Assembly (NCBI GenBank): GCA_025998675.1 | Contig: AP024673.1 | Span: 1,701,221 to 1,765,220 of the forward strand | Length of the DNA stretch: 64,000 bases | Direction of reading: 5' to 3' | Origin: Fimbriimonadales bacterium | Lineage (GTDB): Bacteria; Armatimonadota; Fimbriimonadia; Fimbriimonadales; GBS-DC | Shown: piece by piece, positions 29,053 to 50,621 of the stretch | Position numbering within the stretch: the stretch's first letter is position 1 | How the letters are laid out: each line of letters starts with the position of its first letter | Program-made: the position numbers and the translations under genes | Notes under the pieces: model-generated | Databases searched by the model: none | What the model was told of the DNA's origin: nothing | The model's input: only the letters and a program-made list of their open reading frames with translations

Positions 29053-29155
29053 GGACGGCAGGCAGAGACACCGCAAGTCGCTCTGGGGTGCATCTGGGGC
29101 GGACTCGGTGTCTTTGCACTGTAATTACAACATGCATGCACAGCGCTGTCCGTAT

Positions 29156-29208
29156 GGAGTGCGGAAGCGGAGCTTCCGCGCATGCTGAAGCTCCCGCTTC
29201 AGCACTCC
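29156..29208. repeat. Three-way-junction hairpin repeat, copy 1
   Basis: An outer stem GGAGTGC / GCACTCC encloses two hairpins, GCGGAAGC-GGA-GCTTCCGC and GCTGAAGC-TCCC-GCTTCAGC, so single-stranded DNA or RNA could fold into a three-way junction. Close copies occur at 47088-47139 and 50515-50566, and a short one at 38424-38453. Confidence 0.85.
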
Positions 29209-47087: not shown

Positions 47088-47139
47088 GGAGTGCTGAAGC
47101 GGGAGCTTTAGCGTCGCGGAAGCTCCGCTTCCGCACTCC
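47088..47139. repeat. Three-way-junction hairpin repeat, copy 2
   Basis: The same GGAGTGC / GCACTCC outer stem and two inner hairpins as at 29156-29208, in inverted genomic orientation but in the same orientation relative to the downstream gene. It lies about 32 bp upstream of the shared motif. Confidence 0.85.
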
Positions 47140-47210
47140 ATAAAACGGCGATTCGCACACATGCCGCTATTCTAACGCGAAGACACTTAGCAGATGCGTC
47201 CCGTTCGTGG

Positions 47211-47225: not shown

Positions 47226-47843
47226 ATGCACGCGCTAAAGGAATGGGCGTTCGGGCTGATTCAGCAGTATGGGATGGCGGGGCTGTTTGGGGTGGCGTTT
47301 ATCGAGTCGTCGTTTTTCCCCGTGCCGCCCGATGTGCTGGTGATTGCGCTGCTGCTGGCGCCCGACGCGCCGTCGCCGTTCTGGGTAGCGACGGTCTGCA
47401 CGATTGGGAGCGTGCTGGGCGCGGGGCTGGGCTGGGTCATCGGCGCGTATGGGGGCTACCCGCTGCTGCGGCGAATGTTCAAGGCGGACAAGATTGAGGC
47501 GGTCGAGCGGCTCTACACGCGCTACGGCGTCTATACGATTTTCATCGCCGCGTTCACGCCCATTCCGTACAAGGTGTTCACGGTCGCCAGCGGGGTGTTC
47601 CGCTACAATATGCTGACGATGATGGGGGTCAGCGTGGTGGGGCGCGGCGCGCGCTTTTTCGCCGTGGCGTATCTGGTGCACTGGTTCGGCGACGCGGTGG
47701 TCAAGCAGTTCGACCGCGCGCTGCTGGTGGGCACCGCGCTGTTTCTGGTGGGGGCGGGCGTCTACATCTATTACCGCACGCGCTACAGCAAGGTGAAGCG
47801 CCTTGCGCGGCAGATGGTTCAGAACGAATCGACGGGCGAGTAG
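47226..47843 (+). CDS. DedA/VTT-family membrane protein
   Basis: The 205-residue integral membrane protein has the VTT-domain pattern: FGVAFIESSFFPVPPDVLVIALLLA, GSVLGAGLGWVIGAYGGYPLL, FTPIPYKVFTVASGVFRYN, and GRGARFFAVAYLVHWFGD. These proteins act as lipid scramblase-like or transport proteins; the YqaA branch is likely because of its short, single-domain form. The 3' end overlaps the convergent GNAT gene by 25 bp. Confidence 0.88.
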   Translation: MHALKEWAFGLIQQYGMAGLFGVAFIESSFFPVPPDVLVIALLLAPDAPSPFWVATVCTIGSVLGAGLGWVIGAYGGYPLLRRMFKADKIEAVERLYTRYGVYTIFIAAFTPIPYKVFTVASGVFRYNMLTMMGVSVVGRGARFFAVAYLVHWFGDAVVKQFDRALLVGTALFLVGAGVYIYYRTRYSKVKRLARQMVQNESTGE

Positions 47844-48901
47844 CAGGCGGGGCGCAGCGGGTAGCGGGCGCGCCATTCGGCGGGCAGGTTGACCTGCGGC
47901 GGTTCGGGTAGCCCCAGCAGCAACGCGAGCGCGCCTGCCTGCCCTGCCCGCGCAAGACCCTCAGGCGCAGGCGCGTTCAGCGACTCCAGCGCATCGTAGA
48001 GGGTCTGCCAGCAACACACGCGCGCCATCGCGCTGCCCTGACCGACCCACCGCACATCGGGCAACAGTGGGCGCGCCCAGCGTTCGATGTCCGATTCGGG
48101 CAGGAAAATCTCCAGCCGCGCGCCCGCCATGTGCGCCGTCTGGCTGGCGAACCCGATCAGCATGCGCACGGCTTCGTCGTCGCGGGGGTCTGCGCCCAGT
48201 TCCGCCAGACTGACGCTCTCGACGCAGGGGTTGCCCTGCGCGTCCCTGCCGTGATGGGTCTCCAGCGCGAGGTAGCCGCGCAGGTTGCCTGCGGGGTCTT
48301 CCGCGAGGTAGAACTTCGCCCGCCAGTTGGGGTCGTCCCAGCGCGTCCACACGCGCCAGTAGGCGTCGTCGCGCGCGACGCACAGCGCGTGGTCGGCGTA
48401 GAAGGCGTCGTACCAGCGTTGCACGCGCGCCAGGTCGTCGGGCGCCGCGACGCGAAACCGCCAGCCGTTCAGGTCTACGGGCGCGGGAGTCGCCTGATAG
48501 AGGGGCAGCGGCAGCCGTTCCCAGCCCAACCGCGCGTAGAACTCGTGGATGCCTGTGAACAGCAGCCCGAAAGCGAAATCTTCGGCGTCCATCACCGCGT
48601 GCAGGTCGCGCAACAGTTGCGAGGCGAAGCCGTGTCCCCGATATTCGGGCAGGGTCGCGACATTGGCAATCCCCGCCATCCAGAGCGTCGCGCCGTTGGG
48701 CAATCGCACGGGGCGGCGCACCACCTGCATCGCCGCCACGATGCGCCCCTCCACGAGGCATACGCGCGTGTAATCGGGCTTCCAGAGCGAGTCGCGAAAG
48801 TACCGCTCGAAGTAGTCGTGTCCGGGCGAAAACACGCGCGCCCACACCTCGAGGCACGCTGCCTGCTCTTCGGGGCGCAGGGCGCGGAACTGGGGCGCCA
48901 T
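47819..48901 (-). CDS. GNAT-family N-acetyltransferase, Eis-like
   Basis: The 360-residue protein has an N-terminal GNAT domain (FRALRPEEQAACLEVWARVFSPG; IVAAMQVVRRPVRLPNG; ANVATLPEYRGHGFASQLLRDL, the acetyl-CoA loop) and a second GNAT-like and SCP-like region toward the C-terminus. Eis-type enzymes acetylate amines such as aminoglycosides or lysines; the substrate here is unknown. The ATG overlaps the stop of the zinc-ribbon gene (TGATG), so translation is probably coupled. Confidence 0.85.
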   Translation of the reverse strand: MAPQFRALRPEEQAACLEVWARVFSPGHDYFERYFRDSLWKPDYTRVCLVEGRIVAAMQVVRRPVRLPNGATLWMAGIANVATLPEYRGHGFASQLLRDLHAVMDAEDFAFGLLFTGIHEFYARLGWERLPLPLYQATPAPVDLNGWRFRVAAPDDLARVQRWYDAFYADHALCVARDDAYWRVWTRWDDPNWRAKFYLAEDPAGNLRGYLALETHHGRDAQGNPCVESVSLAELGADPRDDEAVRMLIGFASQTAHMAGARLEIFLPESDIERWARPLLPDVRWVGQGSAMARVCCWQTLYDALESLNAPAPEGLARAGQAGALALLLGLPEPPQVNLPAEWRARYPLRPACYSPVDSF

Positions 48902-49188
48902 CACTCTTCAGGCTCTTCGTCGAGGTCGGCGTCGAACAGGTCGTCGTCGCCCACCAGTCGCTTGCGGTCGCGCTTCTCCAGCTCTTCGAGGCTCACCTCG
49001 CCCTCCACGAAGGCGGTGTCCTCATCGCGCACCAGCGGCTTGTCCTCCTCATCCTCATCCAGAGTGGGGGGCAGCCAGTGCTGGGGGTTCACCTTGCGAC
49101 AAGCGTCGCAGACAAAACGGATATTCACCGTGCTGTACCAGGACGGCACCTTGTCCAGGGGTTTGCCGCACTCGGCGCATGTAATCAT
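48901..49188 (-). CDS. Small zinc-ribbon protein with acidic tail
   Basis: The 95-residue protein starts MITCAECGKPLDKVPSWYST and then VCDACRK, giving two CxxC pairs (C4/C7 and C29/C32). The C-terminal ~60 residues are very acidic (DEDEEDKPLVRDED ... DLDEEPEE). The ATG is coupled to the upstream membrane gene by an ATGA overlap and also has AGGAGG upstream. A metal-binding, protein- or nucleic-acid-contacting adaptor is plausible; family unknown. Confidence 0.78.
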   Translation of the reverse strand: MITCAECGKPLDKVPSWYSTVNIRFVCDACRKVNPQHWLPPTLDEDEEDKPLVRDEDTAFVEGEVSLEELEKRDRKRLVGDDDLFDADLDEEPEE

Positions 49189-49442
49189 TGTGTGGTCGCC
49201 TCCTGTTGACTGGGTTTGGTCTGTTTGGCTTTCAGCGCCTCCTGTTCGCGCAGGTACTGTTTGTGCGACAGGATCCCGTTGATGAGCATAATCACTGCGG
49301 CGACGAGATAGAGCCACGCGAGGCGCGGGTCTACATCCTGCCCCGGATCGGCAATCGCTTCGTTGCCGCGCGCGAAGCCAACGATGCTAATTGCGAACAA
49401 GATGAACGCAATCCAGAAGTCAGTTTTTTTCCACCAGCCCAT
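49185..49442 (-). CDS. Small two-helix membrane protein
   Basis: The 85-residue protein has two hydrophobic segments (FWIAFILFAISIVGFARG and LAWLYLVAAVIMLINGIL) and a charged C-terminal tail (KQYLREQEALKAKQTKP). First gene of an operon with the zinc-ribbon and GNAT genes. The ATG at 49442 is 9 nt from a TATAAT box with no SD (leaderless). No known family. Confidence 0.75.
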   Translation of the reverse strand: MGWWKKTDFWIAFILFAISIVGFARGNEAIADPGQDVDPRLAWLYLVAAVIMLINGILSHKQYLREQEALKAKQTKPSQQEATTQ

Positions 49443-49450
49443 GCGGGGGG

Positions 49451-49457
49451 TATTATA
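49451..49457. promoter_or_regulatory. Shared overlapping -10 boxes of a divergent leaderless gene pair
   Basis: The 7-bp stretch TATTATA contains TATTAT on the plus strand (49451-49456, 7 nt before GTG 49464) and TATAAT on the minus strand (plus 49452-49457, 9 nt before ATG 49442). The two start codons are only 21 bp apart. Confidence 0.65.
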
Positions 49458-49463
49458 CCATGC

Positions 49464-50453
49464 GTGAACAGAGCGTGGCTTGCGGAGCCTGCGCCGGATC
49501 GCGATGTGGTGATTTCGGGGCGCGTGCGCCTGGCGCGGAACCTGCTGCACTATCCGTTCCCCCATCAGGCGGACTCCCAGCAGTTGCAGGCGATTGCCCA
49601 ACAGATTCGGGACGCGCTGGGGGCGCTGGGGCTGACCCATGCGATTGAACTCAGTTCGCTCAGCCTGCAGGCGCGCGCGCATCTGGTCGGCGCACGGGTG
49701 ATCAGCCCCGCGCTGCTGGAGGCGCAGCCGAATCGCTGGGCGCTGCTGAACGCCGACGGGAGCGTCGTCGCCGCCGTCAACGAGGAAGACCACCTGCGCC
49801 TGCAAATCACCTGCGCGGGCTGGCAGCCCGACCGCCTGCAGCGCGAGCTACTTCACTGGGAGCGCGCGCTGCAGGCGACGCCGCTGGTGTGGGCGCGCGC
49901 CCCGAAGCTGGGCTACCTGACCGCCTCGCCCATCAATCTTGGTTCGGGACTGCGGCTGGGGCTGCTGCTGCACCTGATGGGGCTGCAGCGCGCCCGACAG
50001 ATTACCCGCTGGCTGGAAGCGCTGCAGACGCTCGGCTGCCACACGCGCGGGCTGTATGGCGAGGGAAGCCTCGCCTTCGAGGGCTATGTGCAAATCTCGC
50101 TGCTGGGCAAGCATGACCCGCTGGACGAATTGCTGGCGCGGCTACGGGGCACGCTGCGCACGCTGATTGACGCCGAGCGCGAGGCGCGCGACCGAATCGA
50201 CCGCGACGCGCTGGAGGAGGAATGGCGCGAGTTGCAGGCGACGCTCCGCCACGCGGAAAGCCTCTCGTTGGGAACCACGCTGCGCGCGCTCGCCGTGTAC
50301 CGTATGCGCGGCATGCTGGGCGAAAACGCCGCGATGCGCGACGCAGCCGACCAGATGCTCTTCGAAGCGGCAGTCTACCCTCCGCCCGAACCCGAACACG
50401 CCGCCGCCGACCGCGCCGCATGGATGCGCGAACGCCTGTGGGGTAGTGAATAG
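49464..50453 (+). CDS. McsB-like protein-arginine kinase (variant)
   Basis: The 329-residue protein has the McsB/ATP:guanido phosphotransferase motifs SGRVRLARNLLHYPFP, NEEDHLRLQ and the signature loop GYLTASPINLGSGLRLG, then CHTRGLYGEGSLAFEGYVQIS. In typical McsB the loop reads CPTNxGT; here the Cys is Ser and Thr is Ser. McsB phosphorylates arginines that mark proteins for ClpCP in Firmicutes. The C-terminal ~100 residues are helical. The start is GTG at 49464, since TATTAT lies 7 nt upstream and the nearby ATG at 49460 is out of frame. No clpC, ctsR or mcsA is adjacent. Confidence 0.85.
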   Translation: MNRAWLAEPAPDRDVVISGRVRLARNLLHYPFPHQADSQQLQAIAQQIRDALGALGLTHAIELSSLSLQARAHLVGARVISPALLEAQPNRWALLNADGSVVAAVNEEDHLRLQITCAGWQPDRLQRELLHWERALQATPLVWARAPKLGYLTASPINLGSGLRLGLLLHLMGLQRARQITRWLEALQTLGCHTRGLYGEGSLAFEGYVQISLLGKHDPLDELLARLRGTLRTLIDAEREARDRIDRDALEEEWRELQATLRHAESLSLGTTLRALAVYRMRGMLGENAAMRDAADQMLFEAAVYPPPEPEHAAADRAAWMRERLWGSE

Positions 50454-50473: not shown

Positions 50474-50621
50474 ATACCAACCTGCTAATCATAGTTCGCA
50501 AAACGGCGACTTATGGAGTGCGGAAGCGGAGCTTCCGCGCATGCTGAAGCTGCGCTTCAGCACTCCATAGTAGCAGGGCGCGTGCGAGGCAATTAACGAA
50601 CTCTGACTGCGCAGCTGGTAT
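50474..50621. repeat. Palindromic element C (148 bp) with GGAGTGC core
   Basis: It has the termini of elements A and B (ATACCAACCTGC, with AGTTCGCAAA inside; right end CGAACTCTGACTGCGCAGC then TGGTAT) but the core is the GGAGTGC three-way-junction repeat (50515-50566) instead of the CCCTCACCCC hairpins. No coding capacity. Confidence 0.85.

Follow-up and report, generated by a model that had tools for sequence, protein, structure and literature searches.

Genes and signals at the locus

We have analyzed a window (the whole stretch of DNA studied, 64,000 nucleotides long) from the genome of a Fimbriimonadales bacterium, a single contig of 2.99 Mb. Two divergent genes are separated here by a gap of only 21 bp (49443..49463). 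On the plus strand, a mcsB-like gene (49464..50453, 329 aa) starts with the GTG at 49464; its product matches PF00217 (E 3.6e-29) and has Ser155 in place of the active-site Cys. On the minus strand, the first gene (49185..49442, 85 aa, with the A of its ATG at 49442) codes for a small membrane protein, a nature judged from the sequence, and a Pfam search with it gave nothing over the cut-off. It overlaps by 4 nt (ATGA) with a gene for a zinc-ribbon protein (48901..49188, 95 aa) that has two CxxC pairs, CAEC-x19-CDAC, and an acidic tail. Third in the operon is a GNAT acetyltransferase gene (47819..48904, 361 aa, Acetyltransf_9, PF13527 E 1.6e-20). The GNAT gene converges with a VTT-domain gene, with an overlap of 25 nt at 47819-47843, and this order is kept in most of the genus genomes examined. 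A dispersed repeat, TATGGAGTGCGGAAGCGGAGCTTCCGC, is found at 29153-29179, 47116-47142, 50512-50538 and 50543-50569, with an inverted near-copy beside the one at 50512.

The gap holds a near-palindrome, GGTATTATACC, at 49449-49459. On the minus strand it contains TATAAT (49452..49457), an extended -10 (TGGTATAAT) located 9 nt from the ATG of the membrane gene and recognized both from the DNA and from its recurrence in the family. On the plus strand it contains TATTAT (49451..49456), a candidate -10 for mcsB, 7 nt from the GTG. The nominal -35 regions of both strands fall within the opposite gene. A possible -35 for mcsB, TTTCCA (49428..49433, plus strand, inside the membrane-protein gene), is weak, with a 4/6 match and a 17-bp spacer, and the closest relative has CTTCCA at this site. 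Direct reading of the 21-bp gap revealed no Shine-Dalgarno (SD) sequence before either start. Reading the DNA confirmed this layout, i.e., both starts, one near-palindrome without SD, boxes 9 and 7 nt from the starts and -35 regions inside the opposite genes, just as it had been described in an earlier note on this DNA.

There is also an out-of-frame ATG at 49460, between the TATTAT box and the GTG of mcsB. A plus-strand transcript might be translated from this ATG, which lies 3 nt after the box and opens a frame of 62 codons, into a 62-residue peptide that modulates mcsB. We consider this extremely improbable, given that the coding score of the frame is negative (-13.8) and that 3 nt is short as a distance from a -10 to a start site.

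Conservation of the box and of its neighborhood

In the genomes of family f1 that we compared, the membrane gene has a GGTATAAT-like box ~8-11 nt ahead of its ATG, both with mcsB adjacent and without it. Since the box recurs before the membrane gene whatever lies upstream, it belongs to the membrane operon. This conservation gives good support to its role as operon promoter: the membrane, zinc-ribbon and GNAT genes would all be driven by one symmetric sigma70-type -10 box, and the mRNA would be leaderless or nearly so. Throughout the order the membrane gene is paired with the zinc-ribbon gene, and this holds also for two genomes, G018 and G023, in which mcsB was not detected. The zinc-ribbon gene was found in 37 of the 41 genomes searched, some of the matches (including some among the most distant) having marginal E-values. 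The GNAT gene is the next one after this pair in most of the family f1 genera compared.

Conservation of the neighborhood had been proposed in the earlier note as a check of its reading, and for mcsB the check fails. The gene adjoins the membrane/zinc-ribbon operon in only eight genomes, all of genus g1, and three genomes of the same genus (G001, G003 and G005) have the operon with no mcsB upstream. The start of mcsB is 7-16 nt from the other face of the box in this species (G000) and its congeners G008, G009 and G011, and the distance is ~50-700 bp in G004, G006, G010 and G007. In G007, an intact PIN/VapC-like gene and a putative antitoxin gene lie between the membrane gene and mcsB (L025:1053-1734). 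The PIN/VapC-like gene is the second of this cassette, and the putative antitoxin gave no family match. The cassette is decayed in G010, and the trees for the order of the gap events (gain or loss of the VapBC-like cassette) were poorly supported.

Start signals and divergent pairs in the rest of the genome

We have compared the counts of several motifs 5-10 nt before candidate starts with those expected. AGGAGG was found 59 times (2.0 expected), TATAAT 18 times (0.6), TACAAT 12 times (0.5) and TATACT also 12 times (0.5), i.e., each was 20-30 times enriched, and the pattern TATAATAN{3,9}RTG gave 90 matches genome-wide against 16 for a control pattern. This genome mixes SD-led and -10-led starts. 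Three identical TATAATACCAAATG sites, 226 bp apart, were found on the minus strand at G000:C1:292354, 292580 and 292806.

Rough gene calls over 450 kb of the genome gave 49 divergent pairs. One shared -10 box, or overlapping boxes, appeared in three cases in these 450 kb and in none in the reversed sequence. Coding-like starts on both sides were present at only 4 of the 95 TATAATA sites examined, the gap box included. Among these four is also a second candidate shared -10, catGGGCTATAATAAAGGCatg (L232, G000:C1:2908565), over which a folC-like and an outer-membrane-protein-like gene diverge, both names being judged from the sequences without a family search. One of the three shared-box cases in the 450 kb, L014 17562/17579, was discarded; its minus-strand ORF looks non-coding, with a low-complexity translation.

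Possible bidirectional use of the box

The -7T and -11A of both strands coincide reciprocally at 49456/49452, which makes the gap box a symmetric -10. In passages of PMC10268837 and PMC12825309, on the prokaryotic bidirectional promoters studied by Warman, Grainger and colleagues, the commonest geometry is precisely this reciprocal -7/-11, with start sites 18 bp apart. The gap box matches these promoters in the symmetric -10 with reciprocal -7T/-11A, in start sites predicted ~18 bp apart and in its location between divergent genes. It differs from those described in these passages in that both start codons are at or next to the predicted transcription start sites, and because of this both mRNAs would be leaderless. 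A divergent pair that is leaderless on both sides is not described in the passages of PMC12825309 and PMC10268837 on which we draw. There is also a likeness to TA-led (leaderless) genes (PMC3160421), in which the same TANNNT box is found ~10 nt before the start codon without an SD, with the difference that here one box is common to two divergent genes. It is physically reasonable that the two directions exclude each other at the box; PMC12825309, however, tested five E. coli bidirectional promoters and found their basal transcription too low for competition.

Alternatively, the box could be a one-way promoter of the operon, with a weaker site elsewhere driving mcsB, or with plus-strand transcription being mainly antisense noise, and the closeness of both genes incidental. 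This would agree with the behavior of TATTAT, found four times at 5-10 nt and four times at 30-35 nt before starts and therefore without positional signal, and with the other short divergent gaps (37-49 bp) of the 450 kb, which usually carry two separate -10 boxes. It would also agree with the symmetric box of G003 and G007, where no mcsB abuts it. However, mcsB is under purifying selection (dN/dS 0.10-0.28 among relatives) and has no SD, and the box keeps the bidirectional geometry as given in the passages cited above, so we regard the one-way promoter as rather unlikely. Given the 7-16 nt that separate the box from the mcsB start, in this species as in three congeners, a promoter that already served the operon probably also drives mcsB from its antisense face, and the mcsB transcript would have little or no leader. 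Of the shared promoter that the earlier note had claimed, the side of the membrane operon is strengthened by the recurrence of the box across family f1, while the use of the TATTAT face by mcsB is no more than plausible. If the box does drive both genes, a non-coding stretch of ~20 bp would suffice to express a divergent pair leaderless in both directions, and the locus would be a simple example of a gene borrowing the promoter of its neighbor.

A McsA-like gene far from mcsB

The earlier note had also put forward, as a hypothesis, a functional module of the kinase, the zinc ribbon and the acetyltransferase, with the zinc ribbon as the counterpart of McsA. The zinc ribbon would then replace McsA as the activator of McsB, and the shared promoter would coordinate the kinase and its partner. 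The adjacency in the eight genus g1 genomes, the two CxxC pairs and the acidic tail speak in favor of this. However, when tried as a McsA the adjacent zinc ribbon was rejected: it lacks GCxxCY, and with it the second-finger form CxxC ... GCxxCY, and its hhalign probability against a McsA zinc finger 2 profile was 5%. Besides, its gene is present in genomes in which mcsB was not detected (G018 and G023), is not linked with mcsB except in the genus subset and does not co-occur significantly with McsB (p 0.27), and a McsA-like gene exists elsewhere in the genome. We therefore hold this module to be very unlikely.

Searches for the UVR domain never gave more than two matches in any one genome of the relatives. 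In this genome there were only two, and the open frames that hold them, 850 and 662 aa long, correspond by size to UvrB and UvrC. The reading that McsA is missing was nevertheless rejected, because UVR-less McsA-like genes exist in the phylum and the zinc-finger-2 profile found one here. In other Armatimonadota orders, 29 of 30 McsB loci are immediately preceded by a CxxC gene, in several cases a short one, and the profile was built from these genes. It detected a McsA-like gene of 88 aa, with two zinc fingers and without UVR domain, that starts at G000:C1:1142442 (minus strand, L141), 608 kb from mcsB, and overlaps with its start the end of a branched-chain-aminotransferase-like (ilvE-like) gene. 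Its product has the second finger in the form CxxC ... GCxxCY and an hhalign probability of 96.5% (E 1e-9), its best PDB match is McsA 8wtb_B (E 1.7e-5), and the match to the NCBIfam McsA model has an E of 5e-4, far below the cut-off.

The McsA zinc-finger profile had matches in 90 of the 101 order genomes searched. Counting the order genomes with both results, the McsA-like gene was found in 66 of the 69 with McsB and in none of the four without it (p 3e-5, kinship being ignored). Inclusion of G031, a genome 91% complete with the McsA-like gene and no McsB detected, changes the latter figure to one of five. McsB is present without a McsA-like match in G025, G029, G037 and G256. With a better zinc-finger partner candidate encoded at a distant site of the genome, mcsB and the operon look like chance neighbors and not like a kinase and its partner. 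We see here a known kind of divergent arrangement, unusually compact and set over a symmetric -10, rather than a kinase-partner module.

The McsB-like protein

The phosphagen-kinase domain of the mcsB-like product is over the cut-off of PF00217. In Foldseek, its AF2 model (pLDDT 93) had the McsB structures 6tv6 and 6fh1 as top matches, full-length and with a TM of ~0.84, and the protein is thus predicted to have the full McsB fold, including the catalytic and dimerisation domains. The match to NCBIfam McsB had an E of 1.1e-43, yet the scores were far under the cut-offs (149.8 against 500 bits for NF053707 and 160.1 against 385 for NF002194). Ser155 aligns with the catalytic Cys (C167 in B. subtilis) and the NEEDH and GEGS motifs are kept. 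Across the order, Ser is nearly invariant at this column. The positions of the pArg-receptor R337/D338 are AA in an alignment made by eye without a reference sequence over the C terminus. The C167S McsB of B. subtilis has been called kinase-inactive (PMC7235348), and in S. aureus the McsA zinc finger positions the catalytic Cys of McsB (PMC12467219). With Ser at the place of the catalytic Cys the kinase activity of the McsB-like protein is uncertain, and the sequence suggests that it may be reduced. One likely reading is that it is a kinase-weak adaptor for ClpC.

In four genomes of the sister family f5 (L038, L044, L049 and L051), clpC is directly downstream of mcsB. Based on this adjacency and on the co-occurrence described above, we infer that McsB more likely partners ClpC and the minimal McsA-like zinc-finger protein encoded separately. 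Like in the Bacillota McsB/McsA/ClpC system, the McsB fold and NEEDH/GEGS are found, and proteins with the ClpC N-terminal domain are present. The differences are the Ser for the catalytic Cys and a McsA-like protein that has no UVR and is unlinked; no CtsR was found in this comparison. The single LMW phosphatase found was, judging from its CVGNSCRSQMAEG motif, nearer to arsenate reductase than to YwlE.

Altogether, we think it probable that the shared box serves the operon and, on its antisense face, mcsB, that both units are chance neighbors and that McsB works with the distant McsA-like protein. A more ambitious proposal, that in Fimbriimonadales a natural C-to-S McsB and a UVR-less minimal McsA act in ClpC proteolysis, with mcsB expressed leaderless from the antisense face at this locus, is possible though still doubtful. 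We find in the natural C-to-S McsB the more interesting lead. A McsB with Ser for Cys across an entire order, together with a detached minimal McsA, would test the need for the Cys in McsB function.

A strict link between the active-site Ser and the loss of McsA was rejected, because other Armatimonadota orders without the Cys keep the McsA-like gene upstream. Five of the 30 McsB loci from outside Fimbriimonadales (L106, L108, L116, L122 and L128) have CPTN at the active site, and five or six UVR matches were found in each of the genomes concerned.
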